DNA of 64,000 nt from Pseudanabaena sp. ABRG5-3. Its GTDB lineage: Bacteria; Cyanobacteriota; Cyanobacteriia; Pseudanabaenales; Pseudanabaenaceae. Below the pieces are notes generated by a model, which worked only from the letters and a program-made list of their open reading frames with translations, made no database searches and had not been told where the DNA came from. The stretch spans positions 3,408,048 to 3,472,047 of the forward strand of contig NZ_AP017560.1 of the NCBI RefSeq assembly GCF_003967015.1, read 5' to 3'. Below are positions 2,890 through 48,553 of the stretch, piece after piece. Positions within the stretch are counted from its first letter, which is position 1; each line of letters begins with the position of its first letter. The translations under genes and the position numbers were made by a program.

Positions 2890-3053
2890 TTAAGCAGATA
2901 ACTATCTGCCGAGCATGAAAAAAGCACCGATTGCTAAATAATAGTTAGCTAGCGATCGGCGCTTTCGTAATGTTTACGATGCTCTACATAAAGAATTCAC
3001 AGTATTCATGAAATGCTTTAGGGCGCGCAAATCACCCCAAAGTAGTTCTATGA

Positions 3054-37495: not shown

Positions 37496-37572
37496 GTATG
37501 TTAGGACACGAAGCTCAAGCAAGGAGATGGTGGCGCGAAGCACCACCATCTCCTTGCTTGGTGATAGCTATA
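37496..37572. repeat. Family-B palindrome (copy B3) overlapping the cobB 3' end
   Basis: 17-bp arms 37516-37532 and 37544-37560 (CAAGCAAGGAGATGGTG and its complement), core GGCGC-GAA-GCACC with one changed base. Ends TTAGGACA (about 37501) and GATAGCTATA (about 37563-37572). The cobB reading frame passes through it and stops inside it. Confidence 0.8.
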
Positions 37573-38960
37573 CAATTCGCCAAAAATCTTTTTAAAAGAT
37601 GGGTTTGTGCGCCGAAATGGAGATGGGTATAGGAGGCATGAACTTGATACTTTTGCCAGCCTTCATTGGGATAATGCAAATGTGATTCATAACCTTGCAA
37701 AGCATATAAGGGGCGATCGCAGATTTCTGTTAAAGATGAGCGATGAAATTCGTGTCCCCAAAGGCGATCGCCTTTATTCATCAAAGGACTATCTTGGAGG
37801 GCGATCGCCTGTCGATAGCCGAGGGTCAAGCGCTTTCCCATTTTTGCTGCTGTTGGCAAAATATTCACCATTGGAAAAGATTGTTCTTGAAAATCAACAA
37901 TGCGATCGCATAGGTACATTAAGCCACCACATTCAGCATAGGTTGGTATTCCTGAAATAATTGCCTTGTGAACTGATGCTCTAGCATCTTTATTTTCTGC
38001 TAATTCCGCCGCAAATACTTCAGGAAATCCACCACCAAAGTATAAGCCTTGAACATTTTCGGGTAAAGCGCGATCACTAATGGGACTCCAAGGAACTAAG
38101 TCGGCTCCCATTTCTCGAAATAAATCAAGATTGTCGGCATAGTAAAAACTAAAGGCTTTGTCTTGGGCGATCGCAATCCGAATTTTGTCCTTACCCCCAA
38201 TTCCTTTCCCTATGGAAGAGGGAAGTAAGACTTGCTCCCCCTCTCTTGCAGGGATGGGGGCTGGGGGATGAGTTTTTTCCATTAAGGGCAATAACTTCTC
38301 CCAATCAAAGCAAGTTTCCCCTAGATGGGCTAAGCGCTCAATAATGCCATCGAGATCGGACATTTCCGCAGTGGGGACTAGTCCTAAATGGCGATCGGGT
38401 ATAGAGATATCATCTTGACGACGCAGCACTCCTAAAATTGGTAAATTTAAAGGCTCAAGGGCTTGGGTTAGGAGTTCTAAATGGCGATCGCTGCCAACGC
38501 GATTGAGAACTACACCTGCAATCTGAATGCGGGGATCGAAGGTGCGATATCCGTGGGCGATTGCCGCAATGGAGCGAGAAGTACTGGCACAGTTGAGAAT
38601 GAGAACTACTGGTGCATTTAGCAATCGGGCAATATGGGCGGTGCTGGCGGTATCATCATGTCCTGTCGCACCATCGAATAGACCCATCACTCCTTCAATA
38701 AGCGCATATTTTGTGGTTTGAGAATGTTTGGTAAAGCATGACTTTACATAGGATTCAGAAGTGAGGACGGGATCGAGGTTGCGACATGCTAATCCTGTAA
38801 TGTAGGAATGGAACATCGGATCGATGTAATCTGGTCCAACTTTAAAGGATTGTACTGGGCTTTGCTCAGATGGCGATCGCGCTTTCAGTGCTGCTAAGAG
38901 CGCCAAAGTTACTGTGGTTTTCCCCACCCCACTACGTTCACCTGCGATAATAATTGCCAT
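37515..38960 (-). CDS. cobB: Cobyrinate a,c-diamide synthase
   Basis: 481 residues, CbiA/CobB family. It amidates the a and c side chains of (hydrogeno)cobyrinate with glutamine and ATP in cobalamin synthesis. ATPase motif MAIIIAGERSGVGKTTVTLAL and VGPDYIDPMFH are at the start. The glutaminase part has YAECGGLMYLCD with the active Cys. Two oddities: an in-frame Pro/Gly/Glu insertion (about residues 228-260, THPPAPIPAREGEQVLL), derived from a dispersed repeat, and a C-terminal tail (ITKQGDGGASRHHLLA) encoded by palindrome B3. The latter is likely non-native. The tail and insertion are easy to check in related genomes. Confidence 0.93.
   Translation of the reverse strand: MAIIIAGERSGVGKTTVTLALLAALKARSPSEQSPVQSFKVGPDYIDPMFHSYITGLACRNLDPVLTSESYVKSCFTKHSQTTKYALIEGVMGLFDGATGHDDTASTAHIARLLNAPVVLILNCASTSRSIAAIAHGYRTFDPRIQIAGVVLNRVGSDRHLELLTQALEPLNLPILGVLRRQDDISIPDRHLGLVPTAEMSDLDGIIERLAHLGETCFDWEKLLPLMEKTHPPAPIPAREGEQVLLPSSIGKGIGGKDKIRIAIAQDKAFSFYYADNLDLFREMGADLVPWSPISDRALPENVQGLYFGGGFPEVFAAELAENKDARASVHKAIISGIPTYAECGGLMYLCDRIVDFQEQSFPMVNILPTAAKMGKRLTLGYRQAIALQDSPLMNKGDRLWGHEFHRSSLTEICDRPLYALQGYESHLHYPNEGWQKYQVHASYTHLHFGAQTHLLKRFLANCIAITKQGDGGASRHHLLA
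38190..38274. repeat. GC-rich dispersed repeat inserted in cobB
   Basis: Rich in CCCC/GGGG runs; shares the exact 16-mer GGGGCTGGGGGATGAG (38257-38272) with cobN (47158-47173). It encodes the low-complexity segment THPPAPIPAREGEQ in cobB. The cobB frame is kept. Confidence 0.75.
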
Positions 38961-39111
38961 GTTTGATTTCTATTGATGCCGCTACTGAGTTTCGGTATTT
39001 CTATTGTAGGACAACTACTTGGCTATAAAAATGTATTAAAAATCTGTGGTAAATACTGCACGTGTTCCACAAGTTTTGTTTTTATCGCAGTGAAAGTTTT
39101 GCTTAGGATAT

Positions 39112-39166
39112 AAAACCCAAATAAACAAAGACGATACTTCGCGCCGACTTTGTTTATTTGGGTTTT
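39112..39166. repeat. Family-B palindrome (copy B4)
   Basis: 19-bp perfect arms AAAACCCAAATAAACAAAG (39112-39130) and its complement (39148-39166), flanked by TTAGGATATA on the left and TTGTCCTAGCTAT on the right. The interior contains CTTCGCGCC, the family-B core in decayed form. Confidence 0.8.
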
Positions 39167-39195
39167 GATTTGTCCTAGCTATCTCTTTCATTGCT

Positions 39196-39305
39196 ATAAG
39201 TAGCTAGGCATAATATAAAACCAGAGCCAAAACCTGTGGCGCACGTGCAGCGTGCGCCACAGGTTTTGGCTCTGGTTTTATATTTAATTGCGCCCACTGA
39301 CTTAT
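39196..39305. repeat. Family-A MITE-like element (copy A3)
   Basis: 110 bp. Ends ATAAGTAGCTAGGCATAATA and AATTGCGCCCACTGACTTAT; inner palindrome built on AGAGCCAAAACCTGTGGCGC and its complement. The orientation is opposite to A4. Confidence 0.85.
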
Positions 39306-39581
39306 CTAGATTGATGATGGAAATAAAGATATTTTAACTTTAATTGTAATTGAAGTATTTATAGTTAAACATCATCATTTTTATGTTGTAAATATTTGCG
39401 ATTATTAATATTCCTGATATATACATGGATAAACGGTTAAAAATTATTCTTACAATGAAAATTTTTAACTAAATTGGTAATTATATAGTTAAATTGTTGT
39501 ACCTGAGAATTGATGATTAAGCACTGATAATAAGAGTAAATACTTATTTGAAACATGTTTTCATATAACTTTGCTCACACA

Positions 39582-39685
39582 TAAGTAGGTGGGCGCAATT
39601 AAATATAAAACCCAAAAACCTGTGGCGATCGCTGCGCGTGCGCCACAGGTTTTGGCTCTGGTTTTATATTATGCCTAGCTACTTA
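39582..39685. repeat. Family-A MITE-like element (copy A4)
   Basis: About 104 bp, opposite in orientation to A3. Left end TAAGTAGGTGGGCGCAATT, right end ATGCCTAGCTACTTA. The core has changed to GGCGATCGCTGCGCGTGCGCC, so the palindrome has drifted and gained a HIP1-like GCGATCGC-type string. Confidence 0.85.
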
Positions 39686-39739
39686 GCATTATTTATCTAA
39701 TTGCTGAAAAATTTTGAATATACGAATTAAGGGGAATAT

Positions 39740-41848
39740 ATGAAAATTAGTAAAAAAGTGGTATTGGGGTATATTTCTGTATCTGTATTGACTGGCATTT
39801 TAGGCTTTAGAGGTTATCAAAGCATCGAAGATGTAAGTAGAGATTTTAATATTGTCGTCACAAGAACTTTACCGATTACTACTGATCTCAAAGACCTTAA
39901 AATTCACTCCTCTAGAATAGTCTCATCAACAGCCGAGTATTTGACGATTTCTATCCGTTCTTCGGAACTAAAAAACTCTGTGGCAGTAATTAAAGCTTTA
40001 GAAGTCGAAGAAAAACTACTAAAAGAAGATGGGATTGAAAAATATGATCAAACCTTTGAGATTTACAAATCCCTATCGATAAACTTTACTCCTGAACAGA
40101 TGGAAAGCTTTAAAGCGATCGCAAATTCTGGCAAAAAATTAAAGAAATCTAGCTTAAAACTTATTTCTGCACAAAAAAAAGGTATTAGTCAGGATGAACT
40201 TTTTGATCTAAAAGAGCAACAGGAAAATATAGAGCAAGAATTGGAAGGGGAGATTAATCGCGCTCTCAAGCTTAAGGATGATAATCTAGATTCTATCCAA
40301 AACCACGTGTCTGACAAAATCTCCGAATCCAGTAAAATTGTACTTATTGGGTATATCAGTATCTTCTTCGGTTGCTTAGCACTTGGCATTTATCTTGCTA
40401 TCACCCTTGATAAAAGACTAACAGAATTAGTACAAGCAACTCAAAAGATTAGTGAAGGCTCATGGGATGTTTCACTTCCACCAATTGCGAATGATGAACT
40501 TGGTCAGCTTACTCAAAGCTTTAGAAGGATGACTACCCAACTACAAAACTCCTTTAATATTTTAGAAGAAAGGGTAGAAGAGCGTACTCAGCAATTGCAG
40601 ATAGAACGAAACAATCTCCAGAAACAACTACTACAGGAACAGATCGTATTACAAATTATTGAGCAGCTTCGTAAAACATTTCAGTTGAATTTTGAATCGG
40701 TTGTGGTTAATATTCGTGAGGCAATTCAATGCGATCGCGTAGCAATTTTACAACTCCAAGATAGTTCACAACCATCCCTAGTTGTCGATTCTATGGCTGA
40801 ATCTATGCGTAAACTGTCTACAGACAATTTGTTGCCACATCAACTTGATGCGATTGATTTCTCTCCTAAAGTACTAGAGCGATTACAGTCGGGAGGGCTT
40901 CAGATTGGCGAGAATATGAATGGACAAAACTCTAGTTATCTTTTGGTACCAGTTTTTATTGAGGAGCGTCTTTGGGGATTCTTAGCGACTTATTTCTATC
41001 AACAGTCACATATTTGGGAAGAGGGGGAGATATCAATTTTGAAACAAATAGCATCTCAGATGAGTATATCTCTTAAAAAACGGAATTTATTCTTAGAACT
41101 TTCAGTATCTAAGGAAAAGGCCGAAGCCGCTAATCGAGCAAAAAGTGAATTCCTTTCTATAATGAGTCATGAAATTCGTACTCCTATGAATGTAGTTATG
41201 GGTATGTCAGAGTTGTTACATTCGACTACCCTCAATCAAGAGCAGAAAGATTTTATAAAGGCAATTCAAGATGGAGGAAATACTCTCCTTGCTTTAATCG
41301 ATGACATTCTTGATTTCTCTCAAATTGAAGCGGATCGTATCGAACTGCAACCCGTAACATTTGAACTATCTGAATTCTTAAAGAATAGTATTGATATCCT
41401 CAAGTTTCGGGCTGAGCAGAAAAATCTGCAACTAGATATGGTTATCGATCCGATCTTACCGCCTGCTTATGTAGGTGATGCTCATCGTCTCAGACAGATT
41501 TTAATCAATCTATTAAGTAATGCAATCAAGTTTACTCAATATGGGAAAGTTGGCGTTACTGTAGATTTTGTAGAACGAGATGGAGATATTTATACGCTTC
41601 GTTTCAATGTTTCTGATACTGGAATCGGCATTTCTCCTGAACATTTAGACAAGCTATTTCAACCCTTTGTGCTGGTAGATTCTTCCTTAAGTAGAAGTTT
41701 TAGTGGTAGTGGCTTAGGGCTAGCGATTAGTAAACGGCTAACTGACAAAATGGGTGGGGAAATAACAGTAAAATCATTACTGGGGCAGGGATCAACTTTT
41801 TCTTTTACAGTGAAATTACCAGTTGCTCCATCGGTGCGATCGCTATAG
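39740..41848 (+). CDS. Membrane-bound sensor histidine kinase
   Basis: 702 residues. An N-terminal membrane helix (about 7-22) is followed by a helical extracytoplasmic four-helix-bundle-like sensor (about 25-195), a second helix (about 198-222) and HAMP (about 225-280). A GAF-like domain (about 310-455), HisKA with [14 protein letters not shown] (His477) and HATPase_c with [16 protein letters not shown] and GSGLGLAI follow. No receiver domain. Hence a partner regulator elsewhere must accept the phosphate. AAGGGG is the ribosome site just before the ATG. The kinase sits between cobB and cobN, and its 3' end is followed by a decayed cobN fragment. Confidence 0.93.
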
Positions 41849-41880
41849 GAGAATGTCAAGTAATGACCATGCCATAATAG

Positions 41881-42178
41881 TTTTGTTGATCAGCAACCTG
41901 CACCGATTGTGATCATTACTGCTGCTGATACGGATATCAAAACCCTTGCAGCCGCTACTGCCCAGTCACCTGAAAATTTTCCGCAGATTCGGGTAGTAAA
42001 TGTCTTGCAGTTGCAGCAACAAATTGCGATCAATACCTATGCCGAGGAGGTTTTGGTGATCGCTAAAGTAATGATTTTTAGATTGTTTGGAAAATGTTTT
42101 GGTTTTAGTTTTAGCGATCGCAAAGACAAAAAATTATTAAGGAATTGGGGGATACTCAATACTTACAGCAGACAATAA
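41881..42178 (+). pseudogene. cobN: Duplicated, decayed 5' fragment of cobN
   Basis: Bases 41881 to about 42090 align without gaps to 44767-44976 in cobN (offset 2886). By eye the first 160 bases are about 90% identical. The frame VDQQPAPIVIITAADTD is the same as cobN residues about 21-37. The match fades after AEEVL, and the frame continues into unrelated sequence to a stop at 42178. No ATG or ribosome site lies at its start, as the upstream part is missing. It starts about 30 bases after the kinase stop. A reading frame remains open, so it could yield a short peptide from the GTG at 41909, but this is doubtful. Confidence 0.85.
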
Positions 42179-42293
42179 ATAAAACATTTTGATATTAAGT
42201 AAGATGCGATCGCTTGCCACTAAATTAAGCAGTTTGCTCACTTCCCTATCAATAGAAAAATTTAACTAGTAAGTTTTTTGCAAGTATTGGATT

Positions 42294-44603
42294 ATGGAAA
42301 ACCTTGGTAGTCAGCATAACGAGTCTAATTTAGCCCAATGCCTTACTGACTATGCGGAGACTCTCAAAGGTTTGCCATCTCAATCCAAGTCATCTTCTCG
42401 GCAAGTTCTCAAAGTATTGCGATCGCGCGATCGCCTCCAAGATGCACTTTCCCAAGTTGCACAACTAGATGATGAGCAATTGATAACACTAGCTGAGCTA
42501 GATCTAGAACTGAAACAACGCTCAGACATTGTTTGCGCGGACAAAGAATTGCAACAAATGCGCCAAAGTTTGCTTCCACCAGAATCTGCTTGGTGGTGGT
42601 ATCTTGAACCAGCTACTGAAGATTCTAAATCTAAATCTTGGTTGGATCGATTTGATTGGGTATGGAATGTAGGTACAGTAGTTTGTCTGGTGGTTGCGAC
42701 ATCTTTTATTACCCAAACTGCGAAAGCTTTCTCCAATGAAGGTTTTGACTTTTTAGGTACTCTCAGTACAATCGGACAGGGTGCGGGTTTAGCTTTTGTG
42801 GCAGGGGGCGCACTTACTGATAAAGGCAAAAAAGCGGTTGAAAGTACTTTGATTAGTATGAAAGTCCCTGCTTCGCTTCATGCTGAAGCTACTTTTGGAG
42901 CGTCATTGTTGTTATTGGGGGCAGCCTACGGTATCCATCATAATTTGCCTAAAGTTGGGGATATTTACTTTGATCGGGCACAGCAGCATGAAAAAAATGG
43001 CGAGTGGTCACAAGCTGTGCAAAGTTATAAACGAGCTTTAAATTTTGCACAGGATGACTATAAATCACAAATTGCTATTGGGTTCCTGTATGAAAAGTTA
43101 GGCAACTTTGAGGAGGCTTTAAAAGTATACAAAAAAGGCTCTTTTTATGGAGTTCCCCAATTCCTAAATGCCCAAGCAAGGGTGATGCTTATGGCAGAGT
43201 TGCAAAAGAATAATTGGCAAGGTGGAATTGATGAGAAAGTAGTTCGTGAAGCTGAGGATTTATTAGCTCGTGCTGACAAAGCAATAACTAACCTCAGTCG
43301 CGAATCTAACGACTTTAGTCTAGACCCTAGATTATCCGCAGATATTGCGATTAATCGAGCCATTGTGATAATGGCACAGCTTAAATACGAAAAAAATATT
43401 AGGGAAGAGACACTACATTCATTCAATGCTATTGTCAATACTCTGATCTCGCTCGATAGTTTAATAGAAAAAGAGTCGGCAGGGCAGCAAAACCCTATAA
43501 CAGTTGCATCTACATTAGGAAAATCAAGAGCAAAATGCTATTACCAGCAAGCTTTTTTAATTGGTAGACTATCAGACTCACCAAAAGTAAATGGAACCGA
43601 TCCTTTGATAAACGATCAGAATATACTGGACGACTGTTGGTCTACACTAAGTTGGGGCACAAGTTTTTACATACCATCCGACGTAACTTTGTTCAAAAAT
43701 TATAAACTTCCAATATCGAATATAGATGTACATTCTGTGTCGGAGATTCGCAATATTAGCTCTTTTATGGGTCTGGTTTACTCTTACCGACGAAGCGAAG
43801 CAATATCTAAATATGGTAATAGAATAGTTCTAATTCAAGACTCTGAAACTTGGTTGGATTTGGCTAATCAGTTGACTCAGGTTATTCAAAATAAGTATGA
43901 TAAAGGTAAGCAGAAGTATGACCAAGACATTGTTTGGAGATTTTTACTGAATAAAAATGGAGAATTGATTGCATACTTTGCCTATGATGAGAAATCACGG
44001 GAACTGGCAAATTTTCAGCCTTTCATTAGAGAATTACTAGAGAAAAAAACAATTAATGCATTAGGTTCAGAATTGGCTCAAGGAGGCAAAATAGAATTTG
44101 TTGATTTTAAGGTTTTGATTTCTCCAGAGGGAAAAGTCAAACATATTCTCCCTTGGGCAATGGCATATCCAAGCAGTGATAAATATTTTGAGCAAATATG
44201 TAAGCAAGAAAATTGCAAAAATCTTATCCTTGAATCTCGTGTTAATTCAGTTTTTAAAGACTATGTAGCTGACCTTAATAATCCTTCAGAAATAGGGGTA
44301 CTACAGTCAATTTTACAGTTAAGCCAAAATTTTCTGAGTGCAAGAGATGATAAAGGTATTTATTATAAAGAACCTGCTATCTTTAAGCTAAAAGTCTCTG
44401 CTGATGGGCAAATCGTTAACTATGAGGCAATTAATCAAGAGGTAATACAAAGACTATGGAAAAAACTACCTTTAAGACTACTCAATGGTGATGACTTAAA
44501 AACACCTCAGTTTCCAGAGGTGGAAAAAGCACCCTATGCTTACTTCAAAATGGAAGTGAGAGGAGTCGAGATTAAATTTGCGCCTTGGTCAGCTCCAAAA
44601 TAG
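42294..44603 (+). CDS. Unrecognised membrane/TPR protein with internal C-terminal duplication
   Basis: 769 residues. A helical N-terminal region (about 1-95, charged, Leu-rich) ends in the motif PPESAWWWYLEP (about 97-108). Two or three membrane or hydrophobic segments follow (about 120-145, 155-180, 195-215), then TPR-like helices (about 220-300, EWSQAVQSYKRALNFAQ). A helical stretch with no family I know (about 300-540) is next. At the end are two similar alpha/beta-looking segments (about 547-625 and 697-769), each starting FLLNKNGELIAYF or FKLKVSADGQIVNY and ending in I(L/F)APW-like strands. The layout resembles anti-phage or signalling membrane scaffolds in a general way only. It sits between a decayed cobN fragment and cobN. 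Confidence 0.75.
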   Translation: MENLGSQHNESNLAQCLTDYAETLKGLPSQSKSSSRQVLKVLRSRDRLQDALSQVAQLDDEQLITLAELDLELKQRSDIVCADKELQQMRQSLLPPESAWWWYLEPATEDSKSKSWLDRFDWVWNVGTVVCLVVATSFITQTAKAFSNEGFDFLGTLSTIGQGAGLAFVAGGALTDKGKKAVESTLISMKVPASLHAEATFGASLLLLGAAYGIHHNLPKVGDIYFDRAQQHEKNGEWSQAVQSYKRALNFAQDDYKSQIAIGFLYEKLGNFEEALKVYKKGSFYGVPQFLNAQARVMLMAELQKNNWQGGIDEKVVREAEDLLARADKAITNLSRESNDFSLDPRLSADIAINRAIVIMAQLKYEKNIREETLHSFNAIVNTLISLDSLIEKESAGQQNPITVASTLGKSRAKCYYQQAFLIGRLSDSPKVNGTDPLINDQNILDDCWSTLSWGTSFYIPSDVTLFKNYKLPISNIDVHSVSEIRNISSFMGLVYSYRRSEAISKYGNRIVLIQDSETWLDLANQLTQVIQNKYDKGKQKYDQDIVWRFLLNKNGELIAYFAYDEKSRELANFQPFIRELLEKKTINALGSELAQGGKIEFVDFKVLISPEGKVKHILPWAMAYPSSDKYFEQICKQENCKNLILESRVNSVFKDYVADLNNPSEIGVLQSILQLSQNFLSARDDKGIYYKEPAIFKLKVSADGQIVNYEAINQEVIQRLWKKLPLRLLNGDDLKTPQFPEVEKAPYAYFKMEVRGVEIKFAPWSAPK

Positions 44604-44710
44604 TTACTTCTACTTAACTATTTACAGGATTGTCAAAAGAAATCACTAGATTCTATCTGCCTTTGCACTGTACGCTATATAGAGATACCTATCTTTAATC
44701 TAGCTAACTA

Positions 44711-47700
44711 ATGCACCGTATTGCCACTATTTCAGGAGGCTGGAACCAGTCCACCGACAGCGTTGTTTTTGTTGATCAGCAACCTGCACCGATTGTGATC
44801 ATCACGGCTGCGGATACGGATATCCAAACCCTTGCGGCGGCTACTGCTCAATTGCCTGAAGATTTTCCGCAAATTCGGGTGGTGAATGTCTTGCAGTTGC
44901 AGCAACAAATTGCGATCGATACCTATGCTGAAGAGGTGTTATCTTACGCAAAGGTCATTATCGTGCGGTTAATTGGTGGACAATCCTATTGGAGTTATGG
45001 ATTAGAAGTTGTTAAGGAAGTAGTAGCGAATACAGGCGCAGTTTTAATTGTTTTACCTGGGGATGAGCGTCCTGATCCAAATTTAACTAGTCATTCTACG
45101 ACGACGCTAACTCTGGTAAATCAGGCTTGGCAATATTTTATTGAAGCAGGAATTACGAACTATCATAATTTACTCAAATTTATTGCAACGGAATTTCTAG
45201 ATACTGAGATGGAATATCAACTTCCAGAACCAGTACCACGTATCGGAATTTATGGAGGTTCTCTTTCTGACGAAGAAAAAAATAATAACGGATTAGTCGC
45301 AATTATTTTTTATCGCGCCCATTACTTATCAGGTAATACGGCAGCGATCGCAGCTTTATGTAAATCTTTAGCCGAGCGTAATCTTACACCTATTCCCATC
45401 TATGTTTCATCCTTAAAAGAACCCGATGTACAAGCGGAATTAATTCGTTATTGCTTGCCTGAATCTGGGCAGAAAGCTGATGTGATTTTAAATACGACTA
45501 GCTTCTCTTTAGCGAGTCTCAAAACCGATACGCCGCAAGTCGATCTTTGGGAAGCTTTGAATGTGCCTGTGTTTCAGGTGATTTTTAGTGGTGGACTGAA
45601 GAAAACTTGGGCAAATGGTACACAGGGATTAAATCCTCGCGATATGGCGATGAATGTGGTATTGCCTGAAGTCGATGGCAGGATTATTACTAGGGCTGTT
45701 TCTTTTAAAGCGATGCAGGGGCAGAATCTTGCCTTGCAAACGGAAGTATTGACCTACGAGCCAGTGCGATCGCGGATTAATTTTGTGGCGGATCTGGCGG
45801 CGAAATGGATACAGCTAAAGCATACTGATGTGGGCGATCGCAAAATTGCGTTAATTCTCGCGAACTATCCTAACCGTGATGGTAGATTAGCGAATGGAGT
45901 TGGGTTAGATACGCCAGCCAGTTGTTTAGAGGTTCTTAAAGCTTTGCGAAGTTCAGGATATGACGTTGGTGAGATTCCTACAACTAGCGATGAATTGATG
46001 ACGTTGTTAACCACAGGTGTGACTAATGATCGTGAATCCTTTGGGGTACGTCAGGTTAATCAATCTTTAGCGTTAGAAGATTATCAAAACTATTTTCAGA
46101 ATTTGCCTGAGCCTGTCCAAAATGGAATTCAGACAAGATGGAATCAGCCAAAATGCGAAACGGAATTTGCGATCGCTGGTATGCAATTTGGCAATATTTT
46201 CGTTGGTATTCAGCCATCACGGGGCTATGACCTCGATCCTACTCTCAATTACCATGCGCCCGATTTAGAGCCGACCCATGACTATATGGCTTTCTATCAT
46301 TGGGTACGCGATAAATTTAACGCCCATGCGATCGCCCATATCGGCAAGCATGGCAATCTCGAATGGCTGCCCGGAAAAAGTGTGGCTCTATCAGAAAATT
46401 GCTATCCTGAAGCAGCTTTTGGGGCGATGCCGCATTTTTATCCTTTTATCGTCAATGATCCGGGGGAAGGCTCTCAAGCAAAAAGGCGATCGCAAGCCGT
46501 CATTCTCGACCATCTCACGCCGCCAATGACTCGTGCTGAGTTGTATGGTGGCTTACAGCAATTAGAAGGCTTAATCGATGAATATTACGAAGCGGAAACC
46601 CTTGATCCTTCAAGATTAAGCATGATTCGCGATCGCCTGCTCGAAACCATCAAGCAGGAAAATCTCTACCATGATTTAGGGATTTCCCTAGATCGTTTAG
46701 AGGATTCGCTAAATACGATTCTCACGACAGCCGATGGTTATCTCTGCGAAATTAAGGAGGCACAAATTCGCGATGGTTTGCATATTTTCGGGCAATGTCC
46801 AGAGGGGCGACAGTTAAGGGATTTGGTAGTAGCGATCGCCCGCAATCCGACGGCTAATCGTGTGGGTTTAACTAGAGCGATCGCACAGGATTGGGGTTTA
46901 GATTTCGATCCCTTGACTGCAAATTTAGGTGAATTGCTTTCGCTAAGTTCCCATCCACGCTTAGTAAATTGCCGAATTATTGGCGATGCGGTGGAGGTTA
47001 TAGAAGAATATGCGGCAGAGTTGGTGGATGCCCTCTCCCCTAGCCCTTCTCCCAATGGGGGAGAGGGGGACAAGATTATCCTCACCCCTAGTCCCTCTCC
47101 CGCAGGAGAGGGGGACAAGAAGATTAATCTTGCTCCCCTTCTCCCCTCATGGGAGAAGGGGCTGGGGGATGAGGGTCTGGCGATCCAATCTGAACTAACA
47201 TGGATTCGCGATCGCCTTTTACCATCTCTCTACAAAACCAATCAAGAAATTACTAATCTTCTACATGGACTCAATGGCGAATATGTGCCTAGTGGAGCTT
47301 CGGGTGCGCCAACGCGAGGCAGACCTGAAGTATTGCCTACAGGACGCAATTTCTATTCTGTCGATATTCGAGCCGTGCCAACGGAAACTGCTTGGGATAT
47401 TGGGCGCAAGGCGGCGGATGTGCTGATTGAAACCTACACTCAAGAGCATGGTGAATATCCGCAAACCTTGGGACTATCGATTTGGGGAACTTCCACAATG
47501 CGAACAGGCGGCGATGACCTTGCTGAAGCTCTTGCTTTATTAGGAGTACAACCTGTTTGGGATGGCGTATCACGTCGTGTGGTGGACTTTGAGATTCTGC
47601 CATTATCGATTCTCGGTCGTCCCCGTGTGGATGTAACTTTGCGAATTTCGGGATTCTTTAGGGACGCATTTCCCAATCTCATTGACTTGTTTGATAGTGC

Positions 47701-48553
47701 GGTCAATGCAGTGGCAAATTTGGATGAACCTAATGACCAAAACCCTCTCGCAGCTAAGGTCAAACAAGAATCTGCATACTGGCAAAAAGAAGGACTAACC
47801 TTAGAACAAGCCCAAGAGCGATCGCGTTATCGGGTGTTTGGCTCGAAACCAAGTGCCTATGGTGCAGGTTTACAGGGCTTAATCGAGTCGCAAAACTGGG
47901 AAAGTGAGCATGATTTAGCTAGAGCCTATATCAATTGGAGTGCCTACGCTTACACCAGTAAGTCCGAGGGGAAATCTGCGCCTGAAGCCTTTAATCAACG
48001 GCTTGGTAATATGCAAATTGTCCTGCAAAATCAAGACAATCGCGAGCATGACATTCTCGATTCCGATGATTATTATCAGTTTCAAGGCGGGATGACGGCA
48101 GCAATCAAATCCATATCTGGCGATGCTCCAGAGATCTACTTTGGAGATAATTCACGGATGGCTCAGCCCAAGGTTCGCAAATTGAGTGAAGAAATTGCAA
48201 GGGTCTATCGTTCCCGTGTTGTTAATCCCAAATGGATTGCAGGGGCGATGCGTCACGGTTACAAAGGCGCGTTCGAGATGTCGGCAACTCTTGATTATCT
48301 GTTTGCCTATGATGCAACGACTAACTGCGTTTCGGACTTCATGTATGAAGGTGTAGCCGAAGCTTATATTTTTAATCCTGAAGTCCAGAGTTTTATTAAA
48401 CAGAGTAATCCTTGGGCTTTGCGAGATATGAGTGAGCGTTTGCTAGAAGCAAATCAGCGTGGGATGTGGCAAGATGTCTCTGCTGATATGCTCGATCAGT
48501 TAAAGGCGATCGCTAATGATGCCGAAGGAGCAATTGAGTCTCAAAATGTTTAA
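44711..48553 (+). CDS. cobN: Cobaltochelatase subunit CobN
   Basis: 1280 residues, large subunit of the ATP-dependent chelatase that inserts cobalt into hydrogenobyrinate diamide (aerobic cobalamin pathway), related to the magnesium chelatase ChlH. The ATG is at 44711. Visible family sequence: MAFYHWVRDKFNAHAIAHIGKHGNLEWLPGKS, and NGEYVPSGASGAPTRGRPEVLPTGRNFYSVD near residue 855. It carries an in-frame low-complexity insertion (about residues 773-820, SPSPSPNGGEGDK) from a dispersed GC-rich repeat. The TGA-free frame through it shows selection. CobS/CobT-like partners are not in the window; in cyanobacteria ChlD/ChlI may serve. Confidence 0.95.
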   Translation: MHRIATISGGWNQSTDSVVFVDQQPAPIVIITAADTDIQTLAAATAQLPEDFPQIRVVNVLQLQQQIAIDTYAEEVLSYAKVIIVRLIGGQSYWSYGLEVVKEVVANTGAVLIVLPGDERPDPNLTSHSTTTLTLVNQAWQYFIEAGITNYHNLLKFIATEFLDTEMEYQLPEPVPRIGIYGGSLSDEEKNNNGLVAIIFYRAHYLSGNTAAIAALCKSLAERNLTPIPIYVSSLKEPDVQAELIRYCLPESGQKADVILNTTSFSLASLKTDTPQVDLWEALNVPVFQVIFSGGLKKTWANGTQGLNPRDMAMNVVLPEVDGRIITRAVSFKAMQGQNLALQTEVLTYEPVRSRINFVADLAAKWIQLKHTDVGDRKIALILANYPNRDGRLANGVGLDTPASCLEVLKALRSSGYDVGEIPTTSDELMTLLTTGVTNDRESFGVRQVNQSLALEDYQNYFQNLPEPVQNGIQTRWNQPKCETEFAIAGMQFGNIFVGIQPSRGYDLDPTLNYHAPDLEPTHDYMAFYHWVRDKFNAHAIAHIGKHGNLEWLPGKSVALSENCYPEAAFGAMPHFYPFIVNDPGEGSQAKRRSQAVILDHLTPPMTRAELYGGLQQLEGLIDEYYEAETLDPSRLSMIRDRLLETIKQENLYHDLGISLDRLEDSLNTILTTADGYLCEIKEAQIRDGLHIFGQCPEGRQLRDLVVAIARNPTANRVGLTRAIAQDWGLDFDPLTANLGELLSLSSHPRLVNCRIIGDAVEVIEEYAAELVDALSPSPSPNGGEGDKIILTPSPSPAGEGDKKINLAPLLPSWEKGLGDEGLAIQSELTWIRDRLLPSLYKTNQEITNLLHGLNGEYVPSGASGAPTRGRPEVLPTGRNFYSVDIRAVPTETAWDIGRKAADVLIETYTQEHGEYPQTLGLSIWGTSTMRTGGDDLAEALALLGVQPVWDGVSRRVVDFEILPLSILGRPRVDVTLRISGFFRDAFPNLIDLFDSAVNAVANLDEPNDQNPLAAKVKQESAYWQKEGLTLEQAQERSRYRVFGSKPSAYGAGLQGLIESQNWESEHDLARAYINWSAYAYTSKSEGKSAPEAFNQRLGNMQIVLQNQDNREHDILDSDDYYQFQGGMTAAIKSISGDAPEIYFGDNSRMAQPKVRKLSEEIARVYRSRVVNPKWIAGAMRHGYKGAFEMSATLDYLFAYDATTNCVSDFMYEGVAEAYIFNPEVQSFIKQSNPWALRDMSERLLEANQRGMWQDVSADMLDQLKAIANDAEGAIESQNV
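47028..47175. repeat. GC-rich dispersed repeat inserted in cobN
   Basis: Three to four tandem CCCTCTCCC/GGGAGAGGGGG-type units with inverted partners; ends with GGGGCTGGGGGATGAG, shared with cobB (38257-38272). It is a known style of cyanobacterial repeat; here the reading frame is kept. Confidence 0.8.

Follow-up and report, generated by a model that had tools for sequence, protein, structure and literature searches.

Why should cobN, which encodes one of the subunits of the B12 cobaltochelatase, be preceded by a second and decayed copy of its own 5′ end, with an unrelated gene lying between the two? The question arises from 64,000 nucleotides of the genome of Pseudanabaena sp. ABRG5-3 – the whole stretch is here called the window, its genome G000, and other genomes carry G-numbers. 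A preliminary description had reported a gap-free duplicate at an offset of 2886, and the duplicate is real: a repeat search of the window aligned 41881-42090 with 44767-44976 over 210 nt, at that spacing, without gaps and at 83% identity. That the copies are homologous, far above chance, is evident from a search of the whole 5.66-Mb genome, in which the upstream copy (the stump) matched the cobN 5′ region at 90% over 174 nt (E 1.8e-61); this search gave no third copy. The reading frame of the stump matches the CobN model TIGR02257 in register (E 1.4e-11, profile positions 29-96). The place originally assigned to the stump was right, with its limits now redrawn: cobN can be recognised from about 41877 onwards, and the likeness has faded by about 42090.

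The order of elements at the locus is stump, cassette-body tail, attC site, passenger gene, leader and cobN (Table 1). The passenger, a single 769-codon open reading frame (g769), is indeed the one complete gene between the copies, as first described, and no tie to cobalamin was found. The complete cobN makes the cobaltochelatase subunit and the stump is dead. Other full-size matches to cobN in the whole-genome search of G000 are only 28-34% identical and lie in a frame of 1337 residues, which we take to be the H subunit of Mg-chelatase. Within cobN, at 47028-47167 of the window, there are CCCTCTCCC..GGGAGAGGG-type repeats, in frame and covering approximately residues 774-826; similar stretches occur in unrelated open reading frames of other genomes, and CobN ranges in length from 1263 to 1333 residues across the genus.

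Table 1. Features of the cobB-cobN interval (window coordinates, except the last row, which refers to locus L054 of the comparison set).
Feature	Position	Strand	Remarks
cobB	37515..38960	-	NF002204, 571.7 bits; native left neighbour of cobN
Second insertion	38975..41876	.	G000 only; palindromic repeats and histidine kinase
Histidine kinase	39740-41848	+	kinase domains
cobN stump	41877..42090 (end approximate)	+	decayed copy, cobN codon ~19 to ~93
Cassette-body tail remnant	42111..42149	+	matches conserved segment preceding attC sites in the G014 array
Degenerate integron attC site	42150..42237	+	covariance model, 29.4 bits, E 0.0009
g769 passenger gene	42294..44603	+	complete 769-codon ORF; TPR; predicted hydrophobic segments
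New cobN leader	44604..44710	+	unlike the cobB-cobN spacer
Intact cobN	44711..48553	+	TIGR02257, 1677.9 bits (cut-off 822); sole copy in G000
G029/G032 identity block	L054 10270-11150	cobN-forward orientation	compared with L055

A critical issue is what the locus looked like beforehand. Our samples comprised 38 genomes of the family and 386 drawn across the phylum; we mapped cobN in the family genomes and read the neighbourhood of the gene in 25 of them. The arrangement to look for, according to the preliminary description, was a cobN adjacent to cobB and lacking both stump and passenger gene, and precisely this is present in four genomes (G008, G015, G011 and G018), where cobB and an intact cobN are adjacent in back-to-back orientation, separated by 25-42 bp. 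Filled sites are equally clear. In G029 and G032 cobB lies 25 bp from the stump, across the same 25-bp spacer as in G008, and the stump retains its ATG, starting exactly where cobN starts in the empty sites; likeness to cobN fades some 93-107 codons in, and is followed by g769, about 110 bp of leader and a complete cobN. On the left, then, spacer and first codons agree between the filled sites and G008; on the right the flank of the insert is cobN itself, and the genes beyond it vary between genomes. Because the G029 and G032 stumps begin at the empty-site start, the stump is the native start of cobN, and g769 together with a second cobN start was inserted after it. The original suggestion of insertion or recombination at the cobN start is thus supported and can be made more precise: the native 5′ end is the stump, and the insert presumably supplied the 5′ part of the intact gene.

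Two further genomes carry a scar. In G013 and G014 twelve cobN codons are fused to 27 bp of junction DNA, 25 of them identical to G029 (E 2e-6); G013 and G014 excepted, cobN-derived sequence beside cobB was not found in the other members of the genus. In a tree of rpoB the five genomes G000, G029, G032, G013 and G014 form one clade (support 100/99), and a single insertion in its ancestor, unevenly decayed thereafter, explains all five. The same combination of stump and gene was looked for in deeply diverged cyanobacteria, where it would have spoken against insertion, and was not found: among the 38 family and 386 phylum genomes g769 adjoins cobN in G000, G029 and G032 only. Across the genus the upstream neighbour of cobN may be cobB, a putative FAD-dependent dehydrogenase, a Uma2-like, AraC-like or photolyase-like gene, a transposase or g769; the genes downstream differ likewise (loci L054-L075).

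The stumps themselves record what followed. Derived substitutions common to all three (cobN nt 228-262) indicate that they are orthologous. That of G000 is without its first ~18 codons, start included, and the cobB-cobN spacer is also missing; given the ATG retained in G029 and G032, this loss is secondary. The G032 stump has a TAG at codon 77, and codons 71-93 of the G029 stump show 14 amino-acid against 4 silent changes. Lost start, stop codon and the many amino-acid changes past codon 70 together show relaxed constraint. Codons 1-70 are another matter: compared with most intact cobN genes the G029 stump has 0-1 amino-acid and mostly 10-15 silent differences in this part, and the G032 stump 1-3 amino-acid differences. 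Such preservation could stem from recombination, from a donor-derived 3′ part or from selection. Between G029 and G032 a block of 96-100% identity runs from the 5′ end of cobB to the start of g769, against ~89% outside it, and this points to, without proving, a recent homologous exchange that would account for the preservation. We rejected functional constraint as the chief reason why stump and attC are 97% identical between these genomes, because the block also takes in the 5′ end of cobB and the start of g769, in the manner of a recombination tract. Gene conversion between the G000 stump and its own cobN is not demanded by the site patterns; in G029 a run of 67 bp free of differences between stump and own cobN (nt 145-211) hints at such conversion.

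In G000 a further ~2.9 kb, carrying a histidine kinase and palindromic repeats, separates cobB from the stump. The kinase had been regarded as one of the passengers, and inserted it was, though in a separate event confined to the G000 lineage; its gene ends 32 bp before 41881. Since the insertion is missing from G029 and G032, the cobB-cobN interval – once contiguous, as proposed at the outset and as the four empty sites confirm – has received passengers at least twice. Within the family the closest relative of the kinase is 44% identical (G025). Between cobB and the kinase lies an inverted pair of 71-nt palindrome-bearing repeats (39197-39267 and 39615-39685, 96% complementary), and related palindromes with AAAACC..GGTTTT ends are found upstream of cobN in other genomes.

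An element of the junction that the preliminary description did not include emerged when the piece between stump and g769 was used as a DNA query. It matches a family of ~120 bp repeats, many copies of which occupy a 37-kb stretch of G014. The repeats terminate at AATTAAGCCGTTA, beyond which the sequence varies by copy; their conserved core starts GCATAAC and its bottom strand folds at -27 kcal/mol. An intI gene (464 bits) adjoins the array, pointing away from it, and 28 pattern-found sites delimit cassettes of 129 bp to ~6 kb. The array is a chromosomal integron. Its region (L187-L189, G014:C1:3496434-3534883) holds intI and some 30 attC sites on the opposite strand, and many of its cassettes have a body of a mere 129 bp, repeating one segment. 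Integrons are already known in Cyanobacteria (PMC2426708, PMC9668308), and attC-like sites occurred in all 26 genomes of the genus.

We built a covariance model on attC sites from G014, G021, G017, G012 and G027 and from the integron of G000, with no site from the cobN locus included. Its best match in the window is the junction site (Table 1), and the orthologous sites in G032 and G029 score 35.5 and 32.0 bits. The core boxes in the window are degenerate (GTTTGCT and GGATACT against GTTRRRY and its complement), and the likeness to G014 extends to the ~40 bp ahead of the site, which match the segment lying before the attC sites there. Judged by sequence, the identification of the junction site as a relic integron attC, homologous to those of the G014 array, is well supported. 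At the loci of G000, G029 and G032 the model found no attC between g769 and cobN. Each of these genomes has intI elsewhere; that of G000 is 1.59 Mb from the locus.

Among the 38 family and 386 phylum genomes the passenger is present at full length in G000, G029 (87% identity), G032 (77%) and, outside the family, in G172 alone (45%), where cobN is not in the vicinity; genes related to its first ~300 residues are scattered across cyanobacteria. A scan of named genomes gave only distant Phormidium relatives, and a scan of plasmids one distant relative in Nostoc. Against solved structures g769 matches in sequence over its TPR repeats only, and a structure model (mean pLDDT 43.6) was too poor for use. 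From its sequence features our guess is that g769 might be a membrane-bound TPR adaptor. A role as a defence or phage protein was considered and dropped, there being no PADLOC or PHROGs match. Nor does g769 look like a cassette gene, which would be an open reading frame with an attC of its own behind it, similarly oriented: it lacks this layout, and among 38 loci of relatives an attC lies nearby just once, in the opposite direction. A distant member of the g769 family in G010 (L037 1387-2760) has a well-formed attC ~200 bp off, at 2961-3047, pointing the other way.

The leader that follows g769 (~110 bp) is unlike the cobB-cobN spacer. Many cobN copies unlinked to cobB share a leader of ~45 bp with a TATAAT box; homology of the new leader with the leaders of unlinked cobN genes was not significant against shuffles, one pair excepted. 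Rfam gave no match to a cobalamin riboswitch at cobN, and a promoter scan of the insert returned sites no more numerous than in shuffles. Two of three early diagnostic sites, and a leader that is not cobB-linked, would make the donor cobN one of the type unlinked to cobB.

How the insert arrived is the central question, and we infer both the arrangement of the donor and the mode of recombination. The probable answer is a one-ended insertion, in which homologous recombination made one join and illegitimate recombination the other. In the ancestor of the five genomes cobB and cobN would have stood back to back, and donor DNA in the order cassette tail with attC, g769, leader, cobN would have recombined with the locus. 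The right join would have been made by homologous recombination within cobN and the left, illegitimately, within the cobN 5′ part at about codon 90-107. The native start would thus have become a stump next to cobB, and the complete cobN would have gained a passenger and different upstream DNA. At the left junction cobN is joined to unrelated DNA, and the right junction falls inside cobN, where it could be placed only with the donor at hand. Two routes, both described for incoming linear DNA (PMC3240628), would lead to this one product: a linear fragment may undergo homology-facilitated illegitimate recombination, or it may first be ligated to a circle, which then integrates by a single crossover. 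The kinase entered later, between cobB and the stump in the G000 lineage, and G013 and G014 would have lost most of the stump, the attC and g769 by deletion, their cobN now being elsewhere. Donors with another context are plausible because cobN has many different neighbours in the genus; the donor itself is hypothetical, as attC-g769-cobN without a stump was found in none of the 38 family or 386 phylum-sample genomes, an absence that in a sample is weak evidence. Against a one-ended insertion we count the fact that codons 1-70 of the stumps in G029 and G032 are nearly free of amino-acid changes, unexpected in a long-dead copy, as well as the degenerate attC boxes and the non-significant likeness of the leader to those of unlinked cobN genes.

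The preserved codons also prompt the idea that the stump is retained for a function, whether to encode a short N-terminal CobN peptide or to act as a regulatory leader. We think this most improbable: the start is lost in G000, the G032 frame is interrupted at codon 77, G013 and G014 are down to 12 codons, and the recent G029-G032 exchange block can account for the preservation. Partial tandem duplications are common, and a duplication in place would dispense with a donor altogether: from cobB-g769-cobN, a tandem copy of g769 and the cobN start would arise and the first g769 then be deleted. That deletion, however, must restore exactly what G008 has, a 25-bp spacer and the context of the cobN start, the attC is left unexplained, and cobB-g769-cobN without a stump was seen in no genome examined; this history is very unlikely. 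Some genomic islands displace the 5′ end of their target gene and supply a replacement, and the locus resembles them in this respect. An integrative element targeting the cobN 5′ end, with g769 as cargo, is nevertheless scarcely credible for an insert that consists of one gene without a recombinase and is known at one site in one clade.

The relic attC and the intI genes of G000, G029 and G032 invite a different proposal: that the integrase IntI joined an attC to a secondary, attG-like site in cobN, and that g769 arrived on cassette DNA in this way. Entry of cassettes into genomes at attG sites is known (Loot et al. 2024, to the extent that the work is related in PMC11023631). An inserted cassette, however, would read g769 then attC, and here the attC precedes g769; a second attC between g769 and cobN was not found; the join to cobN lies ~50-70 bp ahead of the attC and not at its core; insertion at attG would not duplicate the cobN start; and the G000 intI is distant. 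We consider this unlikely. Slightly less so, and still doubtful, is the notion that integron activity outside an array helped to move and re-wire cobN, a core metabolic gene, an attC-bearing cassette fragment having been joined to it by IntI or at an attC-promoted break; if true, cobN would owe to this both its passenger gene and its new upstream DNA.

The finding, then, is real and largely explained, and its kind – partial gene duplication from a one-ended insertion – is known. What lifts it above the ordinary is that the joint holds a relic attC, that sister genomes bear a scar and that cobN itself wanders. Empty sites, filled sites, a half-erased scar and a second insertion make this an unusually readable natural example of one-ended insertion, in a genus where cobN repeatedly swaps its neighbours and upstream region. 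With integron-derived DNA at the joint, a seeding role of cassette DNA in cyanobacterial events of this sort also becomes testable.

The locus can be set beside three known systems. It shares with the recombination studied in PMC3240628 one homologous and one illegitimate end, and a doubled part of the target gene with new DNA between the copies; it differs in that those events come from selection experiments, whereas here the event is read from genomes, with no donor known and the two routes indistinguishable. The likeness to attG cassette insertion, so far as the citing account of Loot et al. 2024 in PMC11023631 conveys it, lies in attC-bearing DNA outside an array, and the difference in order and joints, with g769 after the attC. 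What the junction has in common with the chromosomal integron of G014 is a homolog of its attC sites, together with one of the segment that leads into them; unlike that array it holds one degenerate site with decayed boxes and no second attC, lies 1.59 Mb from the intI of its own genome, and is not a working cassette.
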